DNA from: Eubacteriales Family XIII. Incertae Sedis bacterium
GTDB lineage: Bacteria > Bacillota > Clostridia > Peptostreptococcales > Anaerovoracaceae
Reading direction: 5' to 3'
NCBI GenBank assembly: GCA_031270275.1
Contig: JAISXZ010000176.1
Location: forward strand, 1-36,963
DNA: 36,963 bases
Part shown: one piece after another, positions 4,775-36,854 of the stretch
How the letters are laid out: each line of letters begins with the position of its first letter
Position numbering within the stretch: position 1 is the first letter of the stretch
The notes under the pieces: generated by a model
What the model saw: only the letters and a program-made list of their open reading frames with translations
Databases searched by the model: none
Told to the model about the DNA's origin: nothing
Program-made: the position numbers and the translations under genes

Positions 4775-4947
4775 GGTTACTACTCACACGCCACGCCATT
4801 TTTGCCCATCTCGGAACCTGGTTGCGATTTTGGCTTCCTCACGTAGCTTCTAGTACGCTCCGGGAGCCAAAATCGCCCCCAGAACCCGATCTGAACAAAA
4901 CTGACGCGGCGTGTGAGTAGTTCCATTAGAGTGGGTGAGTAGCAACC
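4775..4947 (+). repeat. Palindromic interspersed element A, copy 2 (full length)
   Basis: Outer stem CTACTCACACGCC/GGCGTGTGAGTAG, core stem GCGATTTTGGCTTCC/GGGAGCCAAAATCGC, conserved ACGCCATTTTTGCCCATCTCGGAACCTGG and CCAGAACCCGATCTGAACAAAACTG. Bounded by GGTTACTACTCAC...GTGAGTAGCAACC. Confidence 0.95.
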
Positions 4948-6973: not shown

Positions 6974-8140
6974 CTAATAGACCGCGTTGTCGCGCAGCCA
7001 TTCAAGCACGGCCTGCAGCTTGCCTATGTCCACGCTCGCGGCATCCATGACGCCCCTGTTGAAGGTGAAGTAGAAGTGGCCGCTCCCCATGCAGGCGTCG
7101 CACATGCGCTTGGCCGCGTCTATGCACTCCTCCTTGCTTCGCGCGAGCGTTATGGTGGGGTCGAAGAAGCCGCCGAACGCGTGCTCCCTGCCGACGGTCG
7201 CGGCGTAGCGCTCCTGATCCCCGTCCTCCGCCCAGACGACGACGGATCGCGGGAGCCTTTCGAGGTAGGGGAGGAAGCGCGTCCAGTCGTTCTCGGCGAA
7301 TATGGTGGTGCCAACGCCGCTCCTGTCGATCTCGGCGACAAGCTCCTCGAAGCTGGGCCACCAAAGCTCCTCGAACTGCTTCTGCCTCATGTAGGGCGCC
7401 AGGTGCAGCGGTATGAACGCCTGTATGCCGGCGCCGGGGCCATCCTCGGGGACGGCCAGCTTTATCATGAACGGCAGGATGGCCCTGGCGGCGGCATCCA
7501 CCTTTTCGGGCATGCGGCGGCAGTCCATGAGCACGGCCTTGAAGCCCCGCAGCTGGTCGGCCACGAAGTCGAAGGGGGCCTCCGTCTGCGGCCCGGCGAT
7601 TATGCCGGGCGTGTAGCCGTATTTCTTGCTCAGGCGCCCTATGATGCCGAAGTGGGCGGCCTTCTGCTCGCAGTATGTCTGGAACGCCTTGGCGAAGGCT
7701 ATCCCCCGGCTGATCGGGTCCGTGTCGAGCGCCGTGCAGACACGCGGCAGGAATTTTTCCACTATCGTGTCGTAGGGCCTGGCTATGAACTCGTCGTAGT
7801 CCTCGACGAGCATGGTCTCGATCTCGGGATGCTGTACGGCCCCGTTCGACGCCAGTATCCAGTTTTTTGCCCCCAGCAGCTGGTAGACGGGCGGGTATCT
7901 CAGGTTTCCGGAAGGGAACGAGTCCGAATAAAAGAGCTCGCACACCCTTTCATGCGCCTTTTCCGCCAGCCCGAGATCGTAATGGGCCTCCATCAGGCTT
8001 ATGCCGGCGAAGCCGCAGGCCGCCTCCAGGGAAAAGGACGCGTACACGGGGACTCTCCTGGGGCGCCTGCCCGCGAACAGATCGGACCTGATGGCGCTTC
8101 TTTCCTCATACAGCTCGGCGATTTTGCCCAAGCGGCTCAC
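6974..8140 (-). CDS. Uroporphyrinogen decarboxylase (URO-D/MtaA)-like protein
   Basis: Overall URO-D-like organisation (RVPVYASFSLEAACGFAG...; central GPQTEAPFDFVADQLRGFKAVLMD; C-terminal GGFFDPTITLARSKEECIDAAKRM). GTG start after AGGGG. Confidence 0.65.
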   Translation of the reverse strand: MSRLGKIAELYEERSAIRSDLFAGRRPRRVPVYASFSLEAACGFAGISLMEAHYDLGLAEKAHERVCELFYSDSFPSGNLRYPPVYQLLGAKNWILASNGAVQHPEIETMLVEDYDEFIARPYDTIVEKFLPRVCTALDTDPISRGIAFAKAFQTYCEQKAAHFGIIGRLSKKYGYTPGIIAGPQTEAPFDFVADQLRGFKAVLMDCRRMPEKVDAAARAILPFMIKLAVPEDGPGAGIQAFIPLHLAPYMRQKQFEELWWPSFEELVAEIDRSGVGTTIFAENDWTRFLPYLERLPRSVVVWAEDGDQERYAATVGREHAFGGFFDPTITLARSKEECIDAAKRMCDACMGSGHFYFTFNRGVMDAASVDIGKLQAVLEWLRDNAVY

Positions 8141-8827: not shown

Positions 8828-8843
8828 GGCTTAGCCTCCTGAT

Positions 8844-9017
8844 GTTACTACTCACCCGCCACGCCATTTTTGCCCATCTCGGAACCTGGGTTCGGTTATT
8901 GGCTTCCTCACGTACCAGGCAGTACGCTCCGGGAGCCAAAACCGCCCCCAGAACCCGATCTGGACAAACACTACCGCGGCGGGTGAGTAGTTTCGATTTA
9001 AGTAGGTGCGTAGCAAC
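8844..9017 (+). repeat. Palindromic interspersed element A, copy 3 (full length)
   Basis: Outer stem CTACTCACCCGCC/GGCGGGTGAGTAG, core CGGTTATTGGCTTCC/GGGAGCCAAAACCG. Same conserved flanking blocks as copy 2. Confidence 0.95.
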
Positions 9018-11507: not shown

Positions 11508-11942
11508 CTATTCAACCCCCAAATCGCCCTTAAGGAGCGCGACCGTCTCCTTTGCCGTGACCGTATTCCTGAACACGCGGTTGAAGCCCATCTCGATATA
11601 GCGGCGCTCGACCTCGGCCCAATTGTTCTCGAGCTCCACCGAAGGCGCGACCGAGCCGCCTGCGTAGAGTATGATGTCGTCCAGGCCGGCCTCGACGCAT
11701 CTGTCGCGCAGGCCCTCGCAGTCGATAAGCCCCATGCCGTAAGACGAGGACACGAGGATCGCGTCCGCGTTCGACTCGATGGCGGCGTTGATGAATTCCT
11801 GCTGCGGCACGACGGCGCCGAGGAAGGACACCTTGAAACCGGCGTCCTCAAAGCTGTGCTTCAGCACCCAGCCGCCGATGATGTGCGCGTCCTCGCCTAT
11901 GGTGCCGATTACCACGCTCATGTTGGGTTTTCCCTTGCTCAT
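11508..11942 (-). CDS. glmS: Methylaspartate (glutamate) mutase S-subunit-like cobalamin-binding protein
   Basis: DxHxxG B12 motif (GEDAHIIGG), AILVSSSYG, ILYAGGSVA, and close similarity to remembered GlmS/MutS sequences (FINAAIE.NADAILVSS.YG.G.IDC.GLR..C.EAGL). Symbol denotes family, not proven substrate. Confidence 0.88.
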   Translation of the reverse strand: MSKGKPNMSVVIGTIGEDAHIIGGWVLKHSFEDAGFKVSFLGAVVPQQEFINAAIESNADAILVSSSYGMGLIDCEGLRDRCVEAGLDDIILYAGGSVAPSVELENNWAEVERRYIEMGFNRVFRNTVTAKETVALLKGDLGVE

Positions 11943-11960
11943 CGCATAAGCCCTCCCTAT

Positions 11961-12134
11961 GTTACTACTCACCCGCCACGCCATTTTTGCCCATCTCGGA
12001 ACCTGGCTGCGATTATTGGCTTCCTCACGTACCAAGCAGTACGCTCCGGGAGCCAAAATCGCCTCCAGAACCCGATCTGAACAAAGACTGCCGCGGCGGG
12101 TGAGTAGTTTCGATTTAAGTAGGTGAGTAGTAAC
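11961..12134 (+). repeat. Palindromic interspersed element A, copy 4 (full length)
   Basis: Bounded by GTTACTACTCAC...GTGAGTAGTAAC and fills nearly the whole glmE-glmS intergenic gap. Core GCGATTATTGGCTTCC/GGGAGCCAAAATCGC. Confidence 0.95.
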
Positions 12135-12138
12135 CTCC

Positions 12139-13611
12139 CTATTTCTGAACCATCGGCAGGCGCGAGGCGTATTGCAGATCCGCGACGACCATGTCGAAGT
12201 CAAGCGGCCGGCCCTCCTTCGCGGCGCGGCTCTCGAGCTTCCCAAGATGGTATTCCTCGACCTCCTTGGGGAGCGGCATGTCGCCGATCCTGTAATAGCG
12301 CATGGCCTGGCTGGCGTCACGCATGAGAAGCACGTTGCCCCTGTTGTGCTTCCACGGGGAGATCATCGTCTGGACCCAGCCGGCGTCCACGCCCAGGCAC
12401 AGGCCGAGGGCAATGTCGCCGTCGCCCGCGTCGAGGCATTTTTCCAGCATGGCCCGCACCTCGATCTCGAGTATGCGCTCCTCCTCCTCGACTTCCCTGC
12501 CTATGGGCAGCCTCTGCGCCCCGACGAGCGTCTCGACCTCCCTCGCTATGCGGACCGACGCGCCCATGCCCTCCTTCGAGGGCGTGGCAAACGCCTCGTC
12601 CTGGCATTTGAGCAGCATGGACGTGCTGCCCCCCATGCAGCCGATGGTCAGCGCGTGGCTCATCATCGCGCTGCATTCCTCCAGCCTCGGGGGGAAGGCC
12701 CCCTGGAACATATGGCTGTTCTGGGTAAAGAGGATGCCCTCGTAGCCGAAGCGCCCGCAGTATTCCTCGCAGAGCCTCTTTGTGACGCGCATCATGGCGA
12801 CGTCCTGGATCAGGTTCATGTTCAGGCCGAACTCGAGGAAGAACTGCCTGATGCCCTGCTCCGCGCCGAGCAGCGACTGGGCGACCATCACGAAGGACTT
12901 GAAGCCGCAGCTGTCGTAGCCCGTCAGGTTGCACGAGATATGCGGGCTCTGCGGCACGCCGCGCTCGTGGTAGATGGCGGCAAGCCGCGATTCGTACTGG
13001 TTTATGCGGATCTCCTCGTCGAGCGATATATGCTTGCAGTGGGACATGACCTCCTGGACGGATCGGCAGTTGCACGCGTTCCAGCCTGCGGCCAGCGCTA
13101 TCTCGGAGGCGAGCCGCCCGTCCTCGTCCGTGGAGTTCAGCGACATGGGGGACCTGATCGCCCGTTTGAGCCTCCGCGCCTCGTCTACCCCGTGGTTCAC
13201 TATCGGCCAGCCGTTCAGCATCGTCGAGCCTTCCTTCCTGCTGCGCTCGATGCCGTCCGCGGCCCTCCTGTAGTTGTTCTTGCGCGTATACGAGTCGGAA
13301 AAGACGTTCCACATGCCGTCCGGGATCAGGGGGTATTCGTCCTCGACAAAGCCCATGCCCTTCAGCATGAATTCCGTGAGCGCCTGCCCGAACTGCGGGT
13401 GGAACAGATGCCTGCCCGTCTCGTGGTACTCGCGCTGCTTGATGGCGTAGTTGCGGCCCGCGCCTACCGAAAGCTCATAGGCCGCCGCTATGTTTTCGTC
13501 CATGTTCTCGATAGCGCGGCCCGTCTCCCACTGCGGCAGCACCTCCTCCCTGCGGATCCTGTAGAATTCCTCGTCCGTCAGCCGTCTGTTCCTGATCGCG
13601 TATTTGGCCAT
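12139..13611 (-). CDS. Methylaspartate mutase E-subunit-like protein (AdoCbl-dependent carbon-skeleton mutase, divergent active site)
   Basis: LTDEEFYRIRREEVLPQW, DSYTRKNNY, STMLNGWPIVNHGV, DGRLASEIALAAGW, FQGAFP, PSKEGM align with GlmE. ATG at 13611 preceded by AAAGGAG. Confidence 0.88.
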   Translation of the reverse strand: MAKYAIRNRRLTDEEFYRIRREEVLPQWETGRAIENMDENIAAAYELSVGAGRNYAIKQREYHETGRHLFHPQFGQALTEFMLKGMGFVEDEYPLIPDGMWNVFSDSYTRKNNYRRAADGIERSRKEGSTMLNGWPIVNHGVDEARRLKRAIRSPMSLNSTDEDGRLASEIALAAGWNACNCRSVQEVMSHCKHISLDEEIRINQYESRLAAIYHERGVPQSPHISCNLTGYDSCGFKSFVMVAQSLLGAEQGIRQFFLEFGLNMNLIQDVAMMRVTKRLCEEYCGRFGYEGILFTQNSHMFQGAFPPRLEECSAMMSHALTIGCMGGSTSMLLKCQDEAFATPSKEGMGASVRIAREVETLVGAQRLPIGREVEEEERILEIEVRAMLEKCLDAGDGDIALGLCLGVDAGWVQTMISPWKHNRGNVLLMRDASQAMRYYRIGDMPLPKEVEEYHLGKLESRAAKEGRPLDFDMVVADLQYASRLPMVQK

Positions 13612-13648
13612 GCCAAGCTCCTTTCCCATGCGGCGGGCCGTGAGCGGC

Positions 13649-15007
13649 CTAAAGCAGCGAGAGCAGGGCCCTTACGTCCTCTGCGTTCTCAAGCGTCTTC
13701 AGATACCTGAATATTTCGTCGGCCTTTTCCGTCACCCTCGGTATGTCCCCGATCCCTACGCAGTCGTGGAAGCGCTGCCTGTGCTCGTCCTCCGTCATCG
13801 GATAGGCCGGCGTTCCAGGCGGGACGTCGATGGAGCCTTTGAGGACGCGCCCGTCCTTCAGCGTAACGACGAGATCCGAGGAATAGTGCTCCCGCGTCGC
13901 GGCGATGCCCTCGTCGATGACCACGGACACCTTCTCTTCCATATATTTCAGCATAGCGGGGTCCCTGATCGCCTCGCGCTCGAAATGCGCCAGCTGGACG
14001 GGCGGCCGAAACAGCGCGTTCGCGACGCAGTAGCCCACGCTGAACTGGGCGTCCACCTTCGGGTTGGGGCCGAGCCTGAATTCCCCGGTAAGCTTGTACG
14101 TGAACGGTGGGACCAGGACCTCCGCCTTTTCGACGTCCTCCCCCGTAAACCCGTGCTGCCTCTGCATGTCCAGCGCCAGCTGCGTGCTCCCCTGGGTAAG
14201 GCCGCAGCTCGGGTACTTTTTGAAGTTCAGGTCCGTCACATGCCATTTGTCGCCCAGGCCGTCCACGGCCTTTGCCGTATCCGCCCTGCCCCTGCCGAAA
14301 AGGAAGAAATACCCGTAATGCCCGTCGAGCCAGTTTTCCGGCCCCGTTATGCCAAGCCGCGCGAACCGCGCGCACTCTATGCCCGTTTCCGCGGTCCAGC
14401 CCTCGATGACGCGCACGGCCAGCGCCCCGTCCGCGTGGCTCTGGAAGCTGCCGCCGCTCTTGTTGAAGGCGAGCGCCATGGCGTTCATGATCTGGGACTC
14501 GTCGAGCTTGAGCAGCCATGAGGCCGCGGCCGTCGAGCCGAAGACGGACACGACGCCCGTCGGGTCGAAGCCGGCGTACTCGTCCTCCCTGAGATTCAGG
14601 CGCAGCGCGGTCTCCGTGCCGACGGCCACGGCGGCAACGAGGTCTTCCCCGCTGCACCCGCCGATCAGCTCCGCAGCGGCCAGGGCCGCCGGAATCGTCG
14701 CCGCGCCGATGTGCGGGCCGGGCGCTATGTGGTCGCATATGTCCCAGGCCCGCGCCATCGAGCTGTTTACGAAGGCCGCCGCGTGCGCGGGGACCTTCCC
14801 CCCATGCAGCAGTATCGTGGCCTCATGCTTCCCGCCCAGCTCCTTTGCCAGATTCGCCAGGGCCTCGATGCCGTCCGATTTCCATCCGGCAATCGCCGCG
14901 CCGCAGATCGCCACGCACTGCCTTTTTGCCCCTTCGACTACGTCTTTGGGTATGTCCTCGTACCTGATCCCATGGATGAAATCAGCCAGCTGGTCTTCTT
15001 TTCTCAT
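13649..15007 (-). CDS. MmgE/PrpD family protein (2-methylcitrate dehydratase / cis-aconitate decarboxylase fold)
   Basis: MARAWDICDHIAPGPHIGAATIPAALAAAE, KKYPSCGLTQGSTQLALDM, RFHDCVG-type C-terminus, all typical of MmgE/PrpD. RBS GGAGACGCC-ATG. Confidence 0.9.
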   Translation of the reverse strand: MRKEDQLADFIHGIRYEDIPKDVVEGAKRQCVAICGAAIAGWKSDGIEALANLAKELGGKHEATILLHGGKVPAHAAAFVNSSMARAWDICDHIAPGPHIGAATIPAALAAAELIGGCSGEDLVAAVAVGTETALRLNLREDEYAGFDPTGVVSVFGSTAAASWLLKLDESQIMNAMALAFNKSGGSFQSHADGALAVRVIEGWTAETGIECARFARLGITGPENWLDGHYGYFFLFGRGRADTAKAVDGLGDKWHVTDLNFKKYPSCGLTQGSTQLALDMQRQHGFTGEDVEKAEVLVPPFTYKLTGEFRLGPNPKVDAQFSVGYCVANALFRPPVQLAHFEREAIRDPAMLKYMEEKVSVVIDEGIAATREHYSSDLVVTLKDGRVLKGSIDVPPGTPAYPMTEDEHRQRFHDCVGIGDIPRVTEKADEIFRYLKTLENAEDVRALLSLL

Positions 15008-15111: not shown

Positions 15112-16467
15112 TTAGATCGGCTTCAGGTATTTCTTCGCGATTCTCAGCGCCGAATCGGGATGCTCCTGCGAAAGGAGCCCGATTGCGTACATTATGTACT
15201 CGCTGTCCACCCACGCCTTCGGTGACATCGGCCGCAGGCTCCAGGGGGCGCTCTCGCTGAACACCGCCGCGTCGAGCACGGCGCCCGGCGCCCTGCCGTA
15301 TTTGAATATCCCCCCGGTCCCGATTATGTTTTTCACGCCGAGCAGGTTCTTCCCGCGCTGGATCGACACCTCGCCTATCGCCGTGAACTCATTCCTCAGG
15401 CTCCCCGCATGCCTCTCCGTCGCGATGCCCGCCGCGGCCTTCGCCAGCGCGATGTCGAGAAGCGCCTCCTGCTCGTTCTGCGGGACGTGTTCCACGTCCG
15501 CGCTGACCATCCGCGTGTATTCGTCCAGGCCCGCGTCCCCGGAGCGCTCGAAGATCGCGCGGGCGTTGTACCTGATCCCCATGTCGCCCTCGACGGTCCT
15601 CATGACCCTCGACTCGGGCAGGCCCCTGACCAGGGTCTGGGGCGTGACCGCCTTGACGTCCTCGACGGAGTGGATGTTCGTGGTCGCCCCGCCGACCTCG
15701 ACGAGCATAAGGCTGCCTATGCCCGCCTCGTTCCTCGTGCCGTCCGCGAGAAGCCTGGCCGCCTGCAGCGAGGCCGCCGGCGTAGGGATGACGTCCCTCT
15801 GGACGAACTCCCTGGCCCTGTCCAGGCCCTTCGCCTTGACGATATGGGCGATGAAGATATCGCGGATCAGCTCCTGCGCCGGCTCGACCTCGACGCGGTC
15901 CACCTCGGGAAGCACGTTCTTCGCCGTATAGACAAGCTTGCCCTTCGACTCCAGCATCTCCTTCGCTTCGCCCGTCGCCGCCCGGTTCCCGCAGACGAGG
16001 ATCGGGCACGCGACGCCCGATTCGGAAAGGGCCTTCGCGTTGTGCAGCATGACCTGCCTGTTGCCGCCGTCGGTGCCGCCGCAGAGCAGCACGATGTCGC
16101 AGCCGCAGGCTTCGATCTCGCCTGCCGTCCCCTTGTCGATCTCGTAGCCATAGGCGCAGAGGACCTTCGCGCCCGCGCCTAGCGCCGCGCGCTGCGCCGC
16201 CTTCAGCGTGAGATCCGGCACGAGCCCGACCGCGGCGATCTTCAGCCCGCCCGCGGCGCTGCTGCAGGCGTATCTGCGGAAGGCCCCGTCCGCCCGGCAG
16301 CCGCAGGCCGCGCCCAGATCTTCAAGGGCCCTGTCCATGCCTATCGTTATGTCCGTCCCGATGGTGGTCGGCGACTGCGCCCTTCCGATCAGGGTCTCGC
16401 TCTCCAGGTCCATCGCGACGGCCTTCGTGTAGGTGCTGCCGAAATCAATCATAAAGCAAACGCGCAT
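15112..16467 (-). CDS. glmL: GlmL/MutL family ATPase-like protein (mutase-associated, ASKHA fold)
   Basis: MIDFGSTYTKAVAMDLE, LLCGGTDGGNRQVMLHNAKALS, SLMLVEVGGATTNIHSV. Co-located with GlmS/GlmE homologs. Confidence 0.9.
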   Translation of the reverse strand: MRVCFMIDFGSTYTKAVAMDLESETLIGRAQSPTTIGTDITIGMDRALEDLGAACGCRADGAFRRYACSSAAGGLKIAAVGLVPDLTLKAAQRAALGAGAKVLCAYGYEIDKGTAGEIEACGCDIVLLCGGTDGGNRQVMLHNAKALSESGVACPILVCGNRAATGEAKEMLESKGKLVYTAKNVLPEVDRVEVEPAQELIRDIFIAHIVKAKGLDRAREFVQRDVIPTPAASLQAARLLADGTRNEAGIGSLMLVEVGGATTNIHSVEDVKAVTPQTLVRGLPESRVMRTVEGDMGIRYNARAIFERSGDAGLDEYTRMVSADVEHVPQNEQEALLDIALAKAAAGIATERHAGSLRNEFTAIGEVSIQRGKNLLGVKNIIGTGGIFKYGRAPGAVLDAAVFSESAPWSLRPMSPKAWVDSEYIMYAIGLLSQEHPDSALRIAKKYLKPI

Positions 16468-16541: not shown

Positions 16542-17498
16542 TCAGGCGAACCGCTCGGCGAAATGGCATCGCGCGAGGCGCCTCGGCAGGATCTCCCGAA
16601 GCTCGGGGCCCTCCTCCAGGCACCTATCCTGAACATAGTCGCAGCGCGGGGCGAAGCGGCATCCCTCGCCTGGGTTCACAGGGGAGCTGATCTCGCCCTT
16701 AAGCAGTATGCGCTTCTTGTCGTAGTTCACTATCGGGACAGGGACGGCGCTGAGCAGCGCCCTCGTATACGGATGTATCTGCCTGCTGAACAGCTCCGCA
16801 GACGCGACCTCCTCCACGACCTGCCCCAGGTACATGACGATTATGTTGTCGGATATATGCTTTACCACGGACAGATCGTGCGTGATGAAGATATAGGCGA
16901 TGCCCAATTCCGTCTGGATGTCGATCAAAAGGTTCAGTATCTGCGCCTGGATCGAGACGTCGAGCGCGGAGACCGGCTCGTCGCACACGATGAACTCCGG
17001 CTCGATGGACAGCGCGCGCGCGACCCCGATGCGCTGCCTGCGCCCGCCGTCAAGCTCGTGCGGGTAGGCGTTGACGAAGCGCTGCGCCAGGCCTACGATA
17101 TCCATCAGCTCGACGACGCGCTTCTTTATCTCGGGGGCCGAAAGCCTGCCGTTTATCGACATCGCCTCGGAAATCGTCTGGAATACGGTCTTTCTCGGGT
17201 TCAGCGAGGCGTAGGGGTCCTGGAATATGATCTGCATCCGCTTGCGCAGCGCCTTGAGCTTCGCGCCCTTCACGTGGGTCACGTCCTCGCCGTCGAAGAC
17301 AATCCTGCCGTCGGTGCTGTCCAAAAGGCGGAGCACTACGCGCCCCAGCGTGGTTTTCCCGCAGCCGGACTCCCCGACGACGCCGAGGGTCGCGGCCTTG
17401 TCGATGGAGAAGCTCACGTCGTCCACCGCGTGGAGATAGCCCTGTGGCACCGCAAAATACTTTTTCAGATTATCGACCTGCAGCAAGGCTGTTGACAT
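16542..17498 (-). CDS. Oligopeptide ABC transporter ATP-binding protein (DppF type), second system
   Basis: Walker A GESGCGKTT, LDGGRRQRIGVARAL, FIVCDEPVSALD. RBS AGGAGCGAAG-ATG. Confidence 0.92.
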   Translation of the reverse strand: MSTALLQVDNLKKYFAVPQGYLHAVDDVSFSIDKAATLGVVGESGCGKTTLGRVVLRLLDSTDGRIVFDGEDVTHVKGAKLKALRKRMQIIFQDPYASLNPRKTVFQTISEAMSINGRLSAPEIKKRVVELMDIVGLAQRFVNAYPHELDGGRRQRIGVARALSIEPEFIVCDEPVSALDVSIQAQILNLLIDIQTELGIAYIFITHDLSVVKHISDNIIVMYLGQVVEEVASAELFSRQIHPYTRALLSAVPVPIVNYDKKRILLKGEISSPVNPGEGCRFAPRCDYVQDRCLEEGPELREILPRRLARCHFAERFA

Positions 17499-17506
17499 CT
17501 TCGCTC

Positions 17507-18475
17507 CTATTGGCCGGCTTTAAGGCAGCGGACAAAATGCGTCCCCGATTCCAGGCGCAGCCCAACCGGCCCCTTCGTGCAGGCCTCGCCGCAGGCCGGG
17601 CATCGCGGCGAAAACTTGCAGCCCTCGGGAAGCGCCGTGGGATCCGGCATAAGGCCCGCGATGGGCAGCAGGCGTTTGCGCTCCCCCGTTATATCCGGCA
17701 GTGAATTGAACAGGCCCACGGTGTAGGGGTGGCTTTTCTTCTCAAAGACGGCGTCCGCCGTCCCTATCTCCACTATCTCGCCGGCATACACCACCGCTAC
17801 CCGGTCGCAGGTCTCCGCAACGACGCCGAGGTCGTGCGTGATCAGGACCATCGAGGTGCCGAGCTCGTTCTTCAGCCCCTTCATCATGTTCAGGACCTGG
17901 GCCTGAATGGTCACGTCCAGGGCGGTCGTCGGCTCGTCCGCGAGAAGCAGCTCCGGCCTGCACGCCAGGGCGATGGCTATGATGACGCGCTGCTTCATGC
18001 CGCCGGAGAACTGGTGCGGATAGTCGTTGAAGCGCGTGGACGGTATGCCGACCATCTCCAGCATTTCGGCGGCCTTCCCTGCGGCCTGCGCGTTGTTCAG
18101 ATCCAGATGCAGCTTGATCATCTCGCTTATCTGGTCCCCGACCCTGTCGATGGGGTTGAGCGCGGTCATGGGATCCTGAAAGATCATGGATATCCTGCCG
18201 CCGCGTATGCCGCGCATGCCGCCCTCCGGCATTTTCAGAAGATCCTCGCCCTGCAGATATATCTCGCCCGACACGATGCGCGCCGGAGGCATGGGCAGAA
18301 GCCTGAGTATGCTCAGGGCTATCGTCGTCTTGCCCGCGCCGGTCTCGCCGACCAGGCCGATGGTCTCGCCCTTTTTCACGTCCAGGGAGACGTCGTTGAC
18401 CGCGTGGCAGACGCCCGTTTCCCTGGATATGTATTTGACGGTCAGGTTCCTGACCGAAAGGATGTTTTCACTCAT
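17507..18475 (-). CDS. Oligopeptide ABC transporter ATP-binding protein (DppD type), second system
   Basis: [29 protein letters not shown]. Confidence 0.92.
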
Positions 18476-18492
18476 TGCAAAAGCCGCCCCAG

Positions 18493-19395
18493 CTATATCT
18501 TCAGCCTCGGGTCAAGGCAGTCCCTCAGCCCGTCCCCAAAGAGGTTCAGCGCTATGACCGTCAGGGAAATCGCGATGCCTGGCATTGTGACGAGATACGA
18601 ATGGTCTATGATGTAGACCATCGCCGAGGTTATGATGGCGCCCCACTCGGGACTCGGCGGCTGCACGCCCATGCCGAGGAAACTGAGGCCCGCCGCGAGC
18701 AGGATGGACAGCGCGACGTTCACGGTGACCTGGACGATCAGCGGCGACATGATATTCGGCAGCAGATGCCCGAACATTATGCGGAGCCGGCCCGCGTTGA
18801 TGGACCGCGCCGCCTCGACGTACTCCTCATTTTTGAGCTGGATGATGGGCGCGCGCGTCAGCCTTGCGAAGATGGGTATGGATGATATCCCTATCGCAAA
18901 GATGGCGCTGCTGACGCCGGTGCCTAGGGCGGCGGCTATCGTGATCGCGAGGAGTATGGCCGGTATCGACATCAGCACGTCCATGAACCTCATGGCGATG
19001 TTGTCGGCCGCCCCCCCGCTGAAACCCGCGAACAGCCCGATGACGATGCCGACCGCCGCCGCGAAAAGCGTGGAGGCAAAGCCGATGAACAAAGACACCC
19101 TGCCGCCGTACAATATGCGCGCGAAGACGTCCCGCCCCAGGTTGTCCGTGCCGCAGGGATGCCTAAGGGACGGCGTAAGGAACTTCTCGAGCAGGTTCTG
19201 CGCGTTGTACCCCTCGGGCGCTATCACGGGCGCGAGCAGGCAGAGGACGACGATGGTCATAAGGATGCAGAAGCCGATCATGGCGGATCTGTTTCTCACG
19301 AGCCTGTCCACGATCTGGCGGAACATGCTCCTCTGCCTTACGACGACATTCTCGTACGGCCCCTGGGCGCGCGCTGCGGCATTGGCGCTAGGCAT
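18493..19395 (-). CDS. Oligopeptide ABC transporter permease (DppC type), second system
   Basis: HPCGTDNLGRDVFARILYGGRVSL and TM pattern; ends FGDGLRDCLDPRLKI. Confidence 0.9.
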   Translation of the reverse strand: MPSANAAARAQGPYENVVVRQRSMFRQIVDRLVRNRSAMIGFCILMTIVVLCLLAPVIAPEGYNAQNLLEKFLTPSLRHPCGTDNLGRDVFARILYGGRVSLFIGFASTLFAAAVGIVIGLFAGFSGGAADNIAMRFMDVLMSIPAILLAITIAAALGTGVSSAIFAIGISSIPIFARLTRAPIIQLKNEEYVEAARSINAGRLRIMFGHLLPNIMSPLIVQVTVNVALSILLAAGLSFLGMGVQPPSPEWGAIITSAMVYIIDHSYLVTMPGIAISLTVIALNLFGDGLRDCLDPRLKI

Positions 19396-20404
19396 GGGCG
19401 CCCCCCCCTTTGGGGAAGTGTCCCGTCTTTTTTGCCCTGGCCGCGAAAAACCGTCCCCTGCCGAAAAACGACTGGCCCTCGAAATCCGCCTTTATGCGCG
19501 GATCGACGGCGGCGTACAGCAGATCGAGGACAAGGTATATGATGCTGTAGCTTATGGCGAGTATCAGCACCGAGGCGCGGACGACCGGGTAGTTGCGCAT
19601 GGCAATGGCCTCGACCATCAGCCGCCCGAGGCCGTTGATCGAGAACACCTGCTCGAGGATCATGGCCGTGCCGAGCGCGCCGCCGAACAGGGTGCCGACG
19701 GTGGTGATGATCGGGATGAGCGCGTTCCTTACGATGTGGTGCCATGTGATCACACTCTCGGTCTGCCCCTTGGCCCTCGCCGTGCGCACATAGTCCTGCC
19801 TTATGCATTCCAGGACGCTCGTCCGCGTAAACCTGAGCAGTATAGCCGCGTTCTGCACGCCTAGGGCGACGCAGGGCAGCACCCAGTACCTTGGGCCGTC
19901 AAAGCCCGAGACGGGAAACCATTTCAGATTGAGGCCGAACCAGATGAGAAGCAGCAGGCCAAGCCAGAACTGCGGCATGGATATGCCGACCATGCCCACG
20001 ACGGAAAAAGAGGTGTCGAGCCATGTGTTCTGGTGTTTTGCGGTAAAGACGCCGAGCAGTATGCCGATGACGCACGCGATGACGGTGGTCAGGCAGGCCA
20101 GCAGAAAGGTGTTCGGGAAGCGCAGCATGATATCGCCGGTCACGGACTGCCCGTTCACAAAGGAGCTGCCCCAGTCACCATGCAGGACTATCCCGCCGAT
20201 GAAGTTGAAATACTGCACGAAAAAGGGATCGTTCAGGCCACGGGATTCCCGCCAGGCCTCGCGCACGTCCTCCGTCACCTGGCCCGAGAGTATCACGTCC
20301 ACGGGATCCCCAGGCGTCAGGAACAGGATGACAAAGATCAGGAAGGATACGCCAAGCAGCACAGGAATCATGAAAATCAGGCGTTTGACGACGTATCTGG
20401 CCAT
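19388..20404 (-). CDS. Oligopeptide ABC transporter permease (DppB type), second system
   Basis: MARYVVKRLIFMIPVLLGVSFLIFVILFLTPGDP. An in-frame upstream ATG at 20425 is an alternative start. Confidence 0.9.
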   Translation of the reverse strand: MARYVVKRLIFMIPVLLGVSFLIFVILFLTPGDPVDVILSGQVTEDVREAWRESRGLNDPFFVQYFNFIGGIVLHGDWGSSFVNGQSVTGDIMLRFPNTFLLACLTTVIACVIGILLGVFTAKHQNTWLDTSFSVVGMVGISMPQFWLGLLLLIWFGLNLKWFPVSGFDGPRYWVLPCVALGVQNAAILLRFTRTSVLECIRQDYVRTARAKGQTESVITWHHIVRNALIPIITTVGTLFGGALGTAMILEQVFSINGLGRLMVEAIAMRNYPVVRASVLILAISYSIIYLVLDLLYAAVDPRIKADFEGQSFFGRGRFFAARAKKTGHFPKGGGAHA

Positions 20405-20513
20405 TGGATTCCCTATCCCCATCACTATTTATGGCGCGCCCGCGAAAACCGCGGACGCGCCTGCGGCAGGAACCACAAGAATCAGAGGGCTTTTCGGAAA
20501 ACGCGCCCGGCTT

Positions 20514-22187
20514 CTACCTGAAGTACGACTCCTCGAAGTAGACGAGGAAGCCGTTGAAGCGCAGGCCCGTCAGATCCTTGTCGATGCCGACATAGGTCTG
20601 GGACGCGGCCAAGGGGAGCCAGTAAAGGCCCTTGTCGAAGAAGAACTCCTGCAGATCGAGGTACAGCTGCGTGCGCTTGGCGAGATCCCCCGTCGAGCGG
20701 ATGCTGTCGCAGATCTCCCTGTAGGTGTCCCCCGATCCGTCGGATGAGAGCTCGGGGTGCGAGGCCCCGAACAGCATCGGGTTGTCTATCGTCGCTATCG
20801 AGTCGGCGCAGTCCTCGACGACCTGCATGTACAGATCATACGCGGTCGTGTCGCCGCTGAATATCTTCGCGCTGACCGAGGCGTAGTCCGTGAGCTCGGG
20901 CTCGAGCGTGATCCCTATCTCGCCGAGCTGGGCCGAAAGCTGCTCCACCACGAGCTGGAAGTTGATGGTCGATTCCGCCAGGACGCGCAGCGTCAGGCCG
21001 TCTCCATAGCCCGCCTCCTCCATCAGCGCCTTCGCCCTCTCGACATCCCGCGCCGGGAAGGGGGAGTTCGTGTCGTAGTCCTCGTTGTACCCTATGCTTT
21101 CGACGGTCAGGATGCTGTTGGCGGGGAACGCGAGCCCGTCATACGCGCCGCGAACGATGTCGTCGCGGTTCGCCGCGAGGTATATCGCCTGGCGGACACG
21201 GAAGTCCGCGAGCGCCTCGTTGCCGGCGTTCATACCCATGTAGATCATCATGTTCTGGCCCGTCATCACGAGCTTTAGGTCATCGCTCTGATAGGCCGTC
21301 GCCACCTGGTCGGCGCTGATGTTCCAGAGAAGGTCGATTTCCCCGTTCTGGAGCGCCATGAACGCGGAGGTGCGGTCGCTGATTATCCTCATGGTCTGGG
21401 TCTTGATCGGCGGGGCGCCCCTGTAGTAGTCCTCAAAGGCGGTGACCGTGATGTGATCGCCGGGGACCCATTCCGTAACCCTGTACGCGGCGGGGCCGAC
21501 GGGCTTCTGGTAGAAGCTCTCGTCGCCGGGCGTGTAGGACTTGCCGCTGATGAGCGTCATCATCTCCAGGCTGACCTCCCAGACGCCGTTGGGGAAGGTG
21601 AACTTAAGGTAGCATGTGTATTCGTCTATGGCCTTGGACGCGTCCAGGTCGATGAAGTCGAGCTGCCAGCCGAGGCCGGCGTCGTTGCGGAACGCGAATA
21701 TGGACGTCAGGAGGTCGGAGGACTCGAAGGTCTCACCGTCGTGCATCTTGATGCCGGGGGTGATGTGGAAGGTCACGCCCTGCCCGTCCGCATCGACCTC
21801 GTAGGAATCGCATACGGGCGAGTAATACTTTCCGGCCTCAAAATCCCAGCGGATGAAATACTCGACGCAGGAGGTCGCGAAGGGATACTGGGTGAAGTCA
21901 AGAAGATTGTCGAGGGATATCCTTCCCGGATCCACGACAGCCGCAAAGACGAGGCTGTCCTTCGAGCTTGTCGCGCCGGCTTTTCTCTCCGAATCGACCT
22001 GCGCGCTGTAGTCCAGGGCTTCCTGAGCGATCTGCGCGGCCAGGTCGGAACCGCCGCCCGCCGGCTGGCCCGAGGCATCGGGCGAATCCGAGCTCGTGCC
22101 CGAACCGCCCCCGCACGCCGACAAGGCGAGCAAAACCATCGAGAACGCCAGGATCAGCACGGCCACTTGTTTCATTCTTGCACTCAT
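20514..22187 (-). CDS. ABC transporter substrate-binding lipoprotein (SBP family 5), second system
   Basis: ATG at 22187 after GGAGGGAGAACGGAA, signal peptide with lipobox LSACGG, HITPGIKMHDGETFESSDLLTSI. Confidence 0.92.
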   Translation of the reverse strand: MSARMKQVAVLILAFSMVLLALSACGGGSGTSSDSPDASGQPAGGGSDLAAQIAQEALDYSAQVDSERKAGATSSKDSLVFAAVVDPGRISLDNLLDFTQYPFATSCVEYFIRWDFEAGKYYSPVCDSYEVDADGQGVTFHITPGIKMHDGETFESSDLLTSIFAFRNDAGLGWQLDFIDLDASKAIDEYTCYLKFTFPNGVWEVSLEMMTLISGKSYTPGDESFYQKPVGPAAYRVTEWVPGDHITVTAFEDYYRGAPPIKTQTMRIISDRTSAFMALQNGEIDLLWNISADQVATAYQSDDLKLVMTGQNMMIYMGMNAGNEALADFRVRQAIYLAANRDDIVRGAYDGLAFPANSILTVESIGYNEDYDTNSPFPARDVERAKALMEEAGYGDGLTLRVLAESTINFQLVVEQLSAQLGEIGITLEPELTDYASVSAKIFSGDTTAYDLYMQVVEDCADSIATIDNPMLFGASHPELSSDGSGDTYREICDSIRSTGDLAKRTQLYLDLQEFFFDKGLYWLPLAASQTYVGIDKDLTGLRFNGFLVYFEESYFR

Positions 22188-22290
22188 TTCCGTTCTCCCT
22201 CCTCCAAACTGTCGGTCACAAACAGGCCACACGATTAAAATCAACAGGCGGACTGCCCGCCATGCCCCAACTAGCCCTCTGCCGGCCGAG

Positions 22291-22337
22291 AAAAAAATAG
22301 AGCCATGTAACATTTTTAGCTAAATGTTACATGGCTC
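22291..22337 (-). terminator. Leader terminator/attenuator-like hairpin upstream of the SBP-dpp-mutase block
   Basis: On the minus strand, GAGCCATGTAACATTT-agctaa-AAATGTTACATGGCTC (16-bp perfect stem) is followed by TATTTTTTT, ~100 nt upstream of the SBP start codon. Confidence 0.7.
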
Positions 22338-22812: not shown

Positions 22813-24096
22813 ATGGGTACGACCTATCTGATCAACTCGATGTGGGTGCTGGTTGCCGGAATACTGGTGTTCTTCATGCAGGGAGGCTTCGCCTTGCTGG
22901 AGGCGGGGCTGACGCGGTGCAAGAACACGGTCAACGTGCTGTCGAAGAACATAATGGACTTCGGCCTGGCGACTGTGGCCTACGGGCTCGTCGGATTCGG
23001 CCTGATGTACGGGGCCGACGTCTCGGGGCTGTTCGGCGGCAGCTTTTTCGTGGATCCCATAACGGGCTTCGACGCGGGCGAGCTCTCGCCCGGCGTGTTC
23101 TTCTTCTTCCAGCTCGTCTTCGCGGGCGCGGCGGCCACCATAGTGTCGGGCGCCATGGCCGAGCGCACGCGGTTCAGGACCTATCTCGTATGCAGCTTCT
23201 TCATAAGCCTCGTCATCTACCCGATACCGGGGCATTGGATCTGGGGCGGCGGCTGGCTGTCGCAGCTGGGCTTCATGGACTTCGCCGGCTCCACCGCCGT
23301 CCATTCCGTGGGCGGCTGGGCAGCCCTCGCCGGCGCCGCGGTCGTCGGGCCACGCATCGGGAAGTACGACAAAAACGGCAAGCCGCGCGTTATACCGGCG
23401 GGCAATATCTTCATGGCGACCCTGGGGGTGTTCGTGCTGTGGCTCGGCTGGTACGGCTTCAATCCGGGCAGCGAGCTTGGCTTCGACGACGTGACCATGC
23501 ACACCGTCGTAACGACGACCGTGGCGGCGGCGGGCGGCATGCTGGCCGCGATGCTCGTGACCTGGAAGCGCTACGGCAAGCCCGACCTCAGCATGATACT
23601 GAACGGGCTGCTGGGCGGCCTTGTATCAATAACCTCGGGCTGCAACGTCATCAGCTTCTGGCCCGCCCTGCTGGTCGGGGCGCTCGGCGGCGTGCTCATC
23701 GTGTTCTCGGTCGAGTTCCTGGACAGAAAGCTCAAGATCGACGATCCCGTAGGCGCCATAAGCGTACACGGGAGCTGCGGGGCGCTGGGCACGCTCTGCG
23801 TCGGGCTTTTCGCCTCGGTCAACACGGAATCGTACGGCCTGTTCTACGGCGGCGGCTTCACCCAGCTTGGCATACAGGCGATAGGCGTTGTAGCGGTCTT
23901 CGTCTGGACGGGAGTGGTGTCGTTCATAATGTTCAGCGTGATGAAAAGGCTCATGGGCCTGCGCGTGTCCAGGGAGGAGGAGATCCGCGGCCTCGACATC
24001 TCGGAGCACGGCGTGGAGGCGTATCCCGACTTTGTCACGAGGGATCTCGAGCACGAGGGAGTCACATTGAATGGAGGTGTCAAGATTGAGCGATGA
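22813..24096 (+). CDS. amt: Ammonium transporter (Amt/MEP/Rh family)
   Basis: GGFALLEAGLTRCKNTVNVLSKN, DFAGSTAVHSVGGWAALAGA, AISVHGSCGALGTL. RBS GAGGAGGTG. Confidence 0.96.
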   Translation: MGTTYLINSMWVLVAGILVFFMQGGFALLEAGLTRCKNTVNVLSKNIMDFGLATVAYGLVGFGLMYGADVSGLFGGSFFVDPITGFDAGELSPGVFFFFQLVFAGAAATIVSGAMAERTRFRTYLVCSFFISLVIYPIPGHWIWGGGWLSQLGFMDFAGSTAVHSVGGWAALAGAAVVGPRIGKYDKNGKPRVIPAGNIFMATLGVFVLWLGWYGFNPGSELGFDDVTMHTVVTTTVAAAGGMLAAMLVTWKRYGKPDLSMILNGLLGGLVSITSGCNVISFWPALLVGALGGVLIVFSVEFLDRKLKIDDPVGAISVHGSCGALGTLCVGLFASVNTESYGLFYGGGFTQLGIQAIGVVAVFVWTGVVSFIMFSVMKRLMGLRVSREEEIRGLDISEHGVEAYPDFVTRDLEHEGVTLNGGVKIER

Positions 24097-36691: not shown

Positions 36692-36836
36692 TAACTGCCC
36701 GGCGCCCACGCCATTTTTGCCCATCTCGGAACCTGGTTCCGAATTTCGAATCCTCACGTAGCTAGGCAGTACGCTCCGGTTCAAAATCCGGCCCCAGAAC
36801 CCGATCTGGACAAAACTGACGCAGACGCCGGGCAGT
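36692..36836 (+). repeat. Element A, copy 7 (full length, diverged)
   Basis: Outer stem ACTGCCCGGCGCC/GACGCCGGGCAGT, core CCGAATTTCGAATCC/CCGGTTCAAAATCCGG, same conserved CCATTTTTGCCCATCTCGGAACCTGG and CCAGAACCCGATCTGGACAAAACTG blocks. Confidence 0.95.
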
Positions 36837-36854
36837 CTCGATTGAAGGAACTGT

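Follow-up and report, generated by a model that had tools for sequence, protein, structure and literature searches.

In the window, by which we mean the whole 36,963-nucleotide stretch of DNA that was analysed, the genes of a mutase-type operon lie on the minus strand: a GlmE-like catalytic (TIM-barrel) subunit with a remodelled pocket (E, 12139..13611; PF06368 and predicted model), a B12-binding S subunit (11508..11942; PF02310, NF002612 and TIGR01501), an MmgE/PrpD-family enzyme (13649..15007; PF03972 and PF19305) and a MutL/GlmL accessory protein predicted to be a mutase reactivase or chaperone (15112..16467; PF13941, 498 bits). Upstream, on the same strand, is an Opp/Dpp-type ABC importer consisting of two ATPases, two permeases and an SBP_bac_5 binding protein (16542..22313). 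The minus strand further encodes a small cupin-like protein with no family match that is common to loci L002 and L007 (11054..11500), and a CocE/NonD-type (peptidase S15) hydrolase common to L002, L004 and L006 (9057..10907). An ammonium transporter (Amt) gene is located on the plus strand just past the importer operon (22813-24096), and a URO-D-family protein is encoded at 6974-8140, its best solved relative being CdmB of Acetobacterium (E 4e-15); the 227-aa protein beside it has a relative directly upstream of E in L004. Neither the 227-aa protein nor the cupin-like neighbour gave an informative match, and no cobalamin riboswitch or other known RNA was found near the operons at the gathering threshold. 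A MITE-like repeat of about 175 bp, palindromic in part and with ends resembling GTTACTACTCACC, is scattered over intergenic positions at 140-210, 4776-4947, 8835-9017, 11952-12134 and 36706-36847 with 80-96% identity, one copy being located between the E and S genes; the repeat ends gave 9 matches against 0.2 expected.

The ORF for E is a real gene, with its ATG start at 13611 preceded by a GGAAAGGAG ribosome-binding site and a second in-frame ATG at 13629. The protein matched the PF06368 (Met_asp_mut_E) profile with 297.3 bits against a gathering score of 26.6, and obtained 289 bits on TIGR01503, the glutamate mutase E equivalog, for which the curated cut-off is 390.1. Its AlphaFold model (mean pLDDT 82, pTM 0.87, low confidence in the pocket loops) superposed on the solved glutamate mutases 6h9e and 1cb7 with TM values of 0.90 and 0.92, respectively, at 2.1 Å, and E is on this model a GlmE-fold protein. 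Profile, model and the anchor motifs, which are in place, agree with the sequence-only reading in making E a true member of the family.

The S subunit surpassed both profile cut-offs (NF002612, 154 vs 110; TIGR01501, 149 vs 135.8), as did MutL (NF040745, 518.7 vs 475). Since S and MutL pass the glutamate-mutase equivalog cut-offs whereas E fails its own, an automatic pipeline would probably give the operon a wrong name. The cofactor side of the enzyme appears intact: the DxHxxG motif of S (DAHIIG in the window) and, in E, the residues corresponding to K326 and E330 of GlmE, which we take to be the adenosine contacts, are invariant across the clade described below, so that the B12 chemistry proposed from the sequence is well founded. 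Among members of the clade, the S proteins scored 256-280 bits and the MutL proteins 776-861, against maxima of 159 and 579, respectively, for those outside it, so these partners too fall into groups of their own. A corrinoid adenosyltransferase gene is found beside the operon in L002, L007, L012 and L131 (CobA/BtuR) and in L015 (PduO).

In glutamate mutase, R66, R149 and E171 grip the migrating glycyl half of the substrate and R100 and Y177 hold the acrylate half (PMC10947579). We located the pocket positions in the window protein by aligning it with the GlmE chain of the C. cochlearium structures 1CB7/1CCW/1I9C, whose numbering is used for columns, and all the residue calls made earlier from the sequence were reproduced. 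Q73 (13393..13395) occupies the Arg66 position, N159, with codon AAC (13135..13137), that of Arg149, and a remodelled loop and helix, N181-CR183-SVQE187-VMSH191 (13039..13071), the positions of Glu171, Gly173, Tyr177 and Tyr181; R110 (13282..13284) equals Arg100 and is kept. The swaps are therefore R66Q, R149N, E171N, Y177E and Y181H, such that R100 alone is left of the R66/R100/R149 arginine claw and one of the six glutamate contacts is retained. The claim that the carboxylate contacts were lost consequently stands for R66 and R149 and falls for R100, which preserves one of them. It had also been considered that arginines might be supplied from shifted positions; this case is excluded in part, R183 (column 173) being present within the remodelled segment in 16 of the 19 clade members. 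Three of the eleven GlmE-invariant arginines (R66, R149 and R213) are lost in the window E. As for the invariant columns of GlmE, the window protein keeps 83 of 174 outside the pocket vs one of six within it (Fisher p 0.22), and an argument from chance on the window sequence taken by itself was dropped as too weak.

A scan of 84,980 species genomes returned 15 loci with an E at 56-83% identity, and an additional member, L131, came from a Syntrophia genome. The clade thus comprises 19 E sequences including that of the window, from at least 17 loci in several bacterial phyla; the 18 others belong to clostridia, Sporomusa, Syntrophia, Geobacter, Burkholderiales, Rhodospirillaceae and a Bacillus-type MAG, and Sporobacter termitidis DSM 10068 and two cultivated Sporomusa strains are among the carriers. 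Q66, R100, N123, H181, K326 and E330 are invariant in all 19, and E177 is present in 18, one of the L016 copies having G177. Column 149 holds N in 15 sequences and V in four, column 171 holds N, S or F, and column 173 holds R in every N149 member and one V149 member and T in the other three. V149 and T173 occur together in a proteobacterial branch (L013, L014 and one L016 copy), so that the clade may have more than one substrate. The only basic residue gained in all 19 sequences is the K at column 101 (K111 in the window), beside R100; the other gained basic residues (columns 113, 115, 143, 192, 270 and 456) are distant in sequence from the known contact positions. At loci L011 (5227-10452) and L016 (7077-10057), a pair of clade E genes is in the same operon with only one S gene; the two E proteins may form a heterodimer or provide two specificities.

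The conservation of the clade is high (mean column identity 74%, more than 100 invariant columns), and its pocket differs consistently from that of true GlmE, of which 25 of 25 sequences retain all six contacts. Three of the six pocket columns that are invariant in GlmE are fixed to another state in the clade vs 25 of 174 other columns (p 0.049), which, judged from the alignment, is convincing as a sign that the pocket change is more than drift, the new states being fixed in 19 sequences. In a maximum-likelihood tree of 75 E sequences, the clade stood apart from the glutamate mutases, the biochemically known GlmE included, with UFBoot 100 and a stem of 0.92 substitutions per site; the expectation that the window protein would fall outside the glutamate mutase clade was thus borne out. 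A control group (L060, L061 and L147), whose members resemble true glutamate mutases, sits on a longer branch (1.37 vs 0.92) and keeps all six contacts.

The distribution of the clade is patchy. Among 291 sampled relatives of the same class, the window genome alone had a member; only the seed genome did among 300 genomes of the order of L011, and likewise among 385 of the class of L016, and two of 151 genomes, both Sporomusa, were positive in another set and two of 46 in Syntrophia. A closer, partial relative was found at L027, in a genome from the same family as the window. Most hits of a plasmid search carried the annotation of an ordinary methylaspartate mutase, and every one was below 35% identity. 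Such a rare and scattered occurrence fits an accessory catabolic trait.

The genomic context separates the clade from glutamate fermentation. We checked 15 genomes with a true GlmE, both Sporomusa included, and 14 of them have methylaspartate ammonia-lyase next to it; the exception, G043, is a draft genome about 83% complete. In the 10 genomes that have only the clade protein, no such lyase was found apart from fragmentary enolase-superfamily hits; in G000 (84% complete), the search for this pathway likewise gave a single fragmentary, sub-threshold enolase-superfamily match. Sporomusa KB1 and S. silvacetica possess a true GlmE (762 bits, six contacts) with its lyase, plus a separate clade member (361-367 bits), and this coexistence argues for two functions.

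The MmgE/PrpD-family partner bears both domains of its family (PF03972, 165 bits; PF19305, 92 bits) and is far from the PrpD 2-methylcitrate dehydratase equivalog NF042438 (20.9 vs 950). A homolog adjoins the E, S and MutL genes at 13 of 17 clade loci, those of L013 and L014 being less closely related (540-545 bits, against 712-766). Beside the mutase genes of Sporobacter and Sporomusa it is absent, and the rest of these genomes showed only remote paralogs (27-33%), which rules it out as an obligatory partner. The best sequence match of the window protein was iminodisuccinate epimerase (E 6e-29), which also gave the highest TM for its model (0.84-0.85), compared with about 0.7 for 2-methylcitrate dehydratase. 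The catalytic His and Tyr align, whereas an Asp replaces H151 of the Bacillus relative and no Lys aligns with K200, so that none of the known MmgE/PrpD reactions is assured. With iminodisuccinate epimerase, cis-aconitate decarboxylase and PrpD the protein has in common the fold and several active-site residues, but its identity to the epimerase and the decarboxylase in structural alignments is 19-22% and two active-site positions differ. As sequence and model place it nearer to iminodisuccinate epimerase and cis-aconitate decarboxylase than to PrpD, dehydration, epimerisation and decarboxylation would all be possible reactions.

Regarding transport, the Opp-type importer cassette of the window also adjoins the mutase in L005 and L006, and in the window it is likely to take up the mutase substrate. 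Carboxylate transporters accompany other clade loci (TRAP DctP in L012 and L014 and its relatives in L008 and L011; TctC in L013), and a flavocytochrome-c-type reductase scoring above the TIGR01813 cut-off is found in L008, L015 and L131.

Could the window enzyme still be a glutamate mutase? Glutamate would then be bound through R110, R183 and K111, with E187 at the amine, and the recurrence of R183, the invariant new lysine beside R100 and the equivalog-level scores of S and MutL speak for it. We nevertheless regard it as unlikely, because E falls far under the TIGR01503 cut-off, three clade members lack R183, the ammonia-lyase is missing from all 10 clade-only genomes, Sporomusa already has a normal glutamate mutase, and a comparably divergent group with 3-methylaspartate-type gene sets retains all six residues. 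Less probable still is that the E/S pair is catalytically dead, either a decaying paralog or a protein with a regulatory or other role; the long stem branch would suit such a history, but the strong conservation, the kept cofactor residues and the co-located MutL and adenosyltransferases speak against it.

Two further proposals are narrower versions of our main explanation, and their probabilities overlap with it. One is that the substrate is a dicarboxylate without an amino group, e.g., 2-hydroxyglutarate or a substituted glutarate, whose carboxylates are held by R110 and R183 and whose branched hydroxy acid product is dehydrated by the MmgE/PrpD enzyme. With Glu171 the contact to the amine is gone, a second carboxylate could be held by R183, MmgE/PrpD enzymes work on polycarboxylates, and the DctP, TctC and fumarate-reductase-like neighbours would suit such a compound; however, both upper-claw arginines are gone, some members lack both N149 and R173, and such a substrate would seem a better fit for relatives that have R66 and R149 without E171, of which one is next to class I fumarase-like genes, so we hold this version to be possible yet tentative. 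The other would make the MmgE/PrpD protein an epimerase of the mutase product, in the manner of methylmalonyl-CoA epimerase with methylmalonyl-CoA mutase, instead of a dehydratase. Its best match, its best structural superposition and the aligned His and Tyr favour this assignment, whereas the Asp at H151, the lack of a Lys at K200 and the enoate-reductase-like neighbours at three loci, which suggest an unsaturated product, do not, and we give it a similarly limited likelihood.

The explanation that we prefer is that the E, S and MutL proteins of the window form an AdoCbl carbon-skeleton mutase for a carboxylic acid other than glutamate, its product passing to an MmgE/PrpD step, and we consider it probable. 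In fact, the pocket has been rebuilt alike at no fewer than 17 loci while the mutase machinery was kept, which makes an acid other than glutamate the probable substrate, as the sequence-only reading had proposed and as the tree and the genomic context agree. With R100 and the cofactor residues retained and the grip on the glycyl half replaced, the enzyme would seem to run the radical chemistry of glutamate mutase on an acid whose migrating group is another, and an AdoCbl-dependent 1,2-group migration is predicted from fold, motifs and context. As for the activity and the order of steps, we infer that substrate binding would lead to Co-C homolysis in an E2S2 complex, that the 5'-deoxyadenosyl radical would take a hydrogen, and that the group would then migrate. 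R110 would hold the carboxylate of the acceptor half, as in glutamate mutase, and the migrating group would be accommodated in a pocket of Q73, N159, R183, E187 and H191, which replace the grip of R66, R149 and E171 on glycine; from the residues conserved in the clade, R183 and the invariant K111, a displaced second carboxylate contact is conceivable. The product would be handed to the adjacent MmgE/PrpD enzyme acting next to a carboxylate as dehydratase, epimerase or decarboxylase, and in some lineages a fumarate-reductase-like flavoprotein would probably reduce the resulting unsaturated acid.

For the clade as a whole, we lean slightly towards a rearrangement new for AdoCbl enzymes, coupled to MmgE/PrpD and with a carboxylic acid other than glutamate or a CoA ester as substrate. 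On this view PF06368 would comprise several subfamilies, the clade among them, each pocket type having a different lyase or dehydratase as its partner. The open literature searched, outside which most subscription journals and preprints lie, contained neither a non-glutamate GlmE subfamily nor a link between glutamate mutase and MmgE/PrpD; relative to it, the proposed substrate class and the operon are new, and the family and its chemistry are known. The number of known AdoCbl carbon-skeleton mutases is small, and annotators usually give GlmE-type E subunits the name methylaspartate mutase, which is probably wrong for a multi-phylum clade lacking the glutamate-binding residues and having another downstream enzyme. 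To identify the substrate could bring to light a radical rearrangement not seen before and a degradation pathway of anaerobes, termite-associated bacteria included, and the cultivated Sporomusa strains and S. termitidis make direct testing possible.

Other PF06368 proteins were encountered with pockets of their own. A common proteobacterial group (L039, L055-L059, L063 and L079-L095; about 20 of 248 genomes in one order, with membership judged from scores) has R66, R100, L149, L171, Y177 and Y181 where checked, and an enolase-superfamily gene lies near an E of the R66/L149/L171/Y177/Y181 type in L144 and beside the related L141. The clostridial GlmE-like protein of L139 (5717-11629) keeps R66, R100 and R149 with E171I and Y177P; its neighbours encode class I fumarase/tartrate dehydratase subunits and a malate/lactate dehydrogenase, and it is a candidate hydroxy-dicarboxylate mutase. 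The Syntrophia genome G1159 (L132-L136) carries six E subunits whose pockets differ (position 66 is D, E, G or R), and several of their genes adjoin MmgE/PrpD, CoA-transferase III, enoyl-CoA hydratase and acyl-CoA dehydrogenase genes. In S. termitidis, a second GlmE-like gene (L138, 2102-12112) with P171 and W177 is located after genes for a glycyl radical enzyme and for iron alcohol dehydrogenases. R100 was present in every sampled PF06368 protein covering that position.

The nearest known system is GlmES of C. cochlearium with its MutL/GlmL (1CCW/1CB7/1I9C/6H9E), with which the window shares the E fold (31% identity), the DxHxxG motif of S, MutL, R100, K326 and E330, and from which it departs by five pocket swaps, the lack of methylaspartate ammonia-lyase, the MmgE/PrpD partner and a separate clade. 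The proteins of L060, L061, L140 and L147 are linked to adenylation and decarboxylase genes (in L140, the adenylation and PLP-decarboxylase genes are beside E) and are presumably 3-methylaspartate-forming mutases as in macrolactam clusters; they belong to PF06368 and have a long branch like the window protein but, unlike it, they keep the six contacts. 2-Methyleneglutarate mutase and the methylmalonyl-, isobutyryl- and 2-hydroxyisobutyryl-CoA mutases carry out AdoCbl carbon-skeleton rearrangements on compounds that are not amino acids, as we propose for the window, but they are of other families and architecture. The likeness of the window E to most acyl-CoA mutases is that of a distant barrel (TM about 0.41-0.48), and none of our results points to CoA binding. 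Within PF06368, the GlmE pocket type pairs with methylaspartate ammonia-lyase, and from a modest sample it seems that the family offers one mutase scaffold whose lyase partner varies with the type of pocket.
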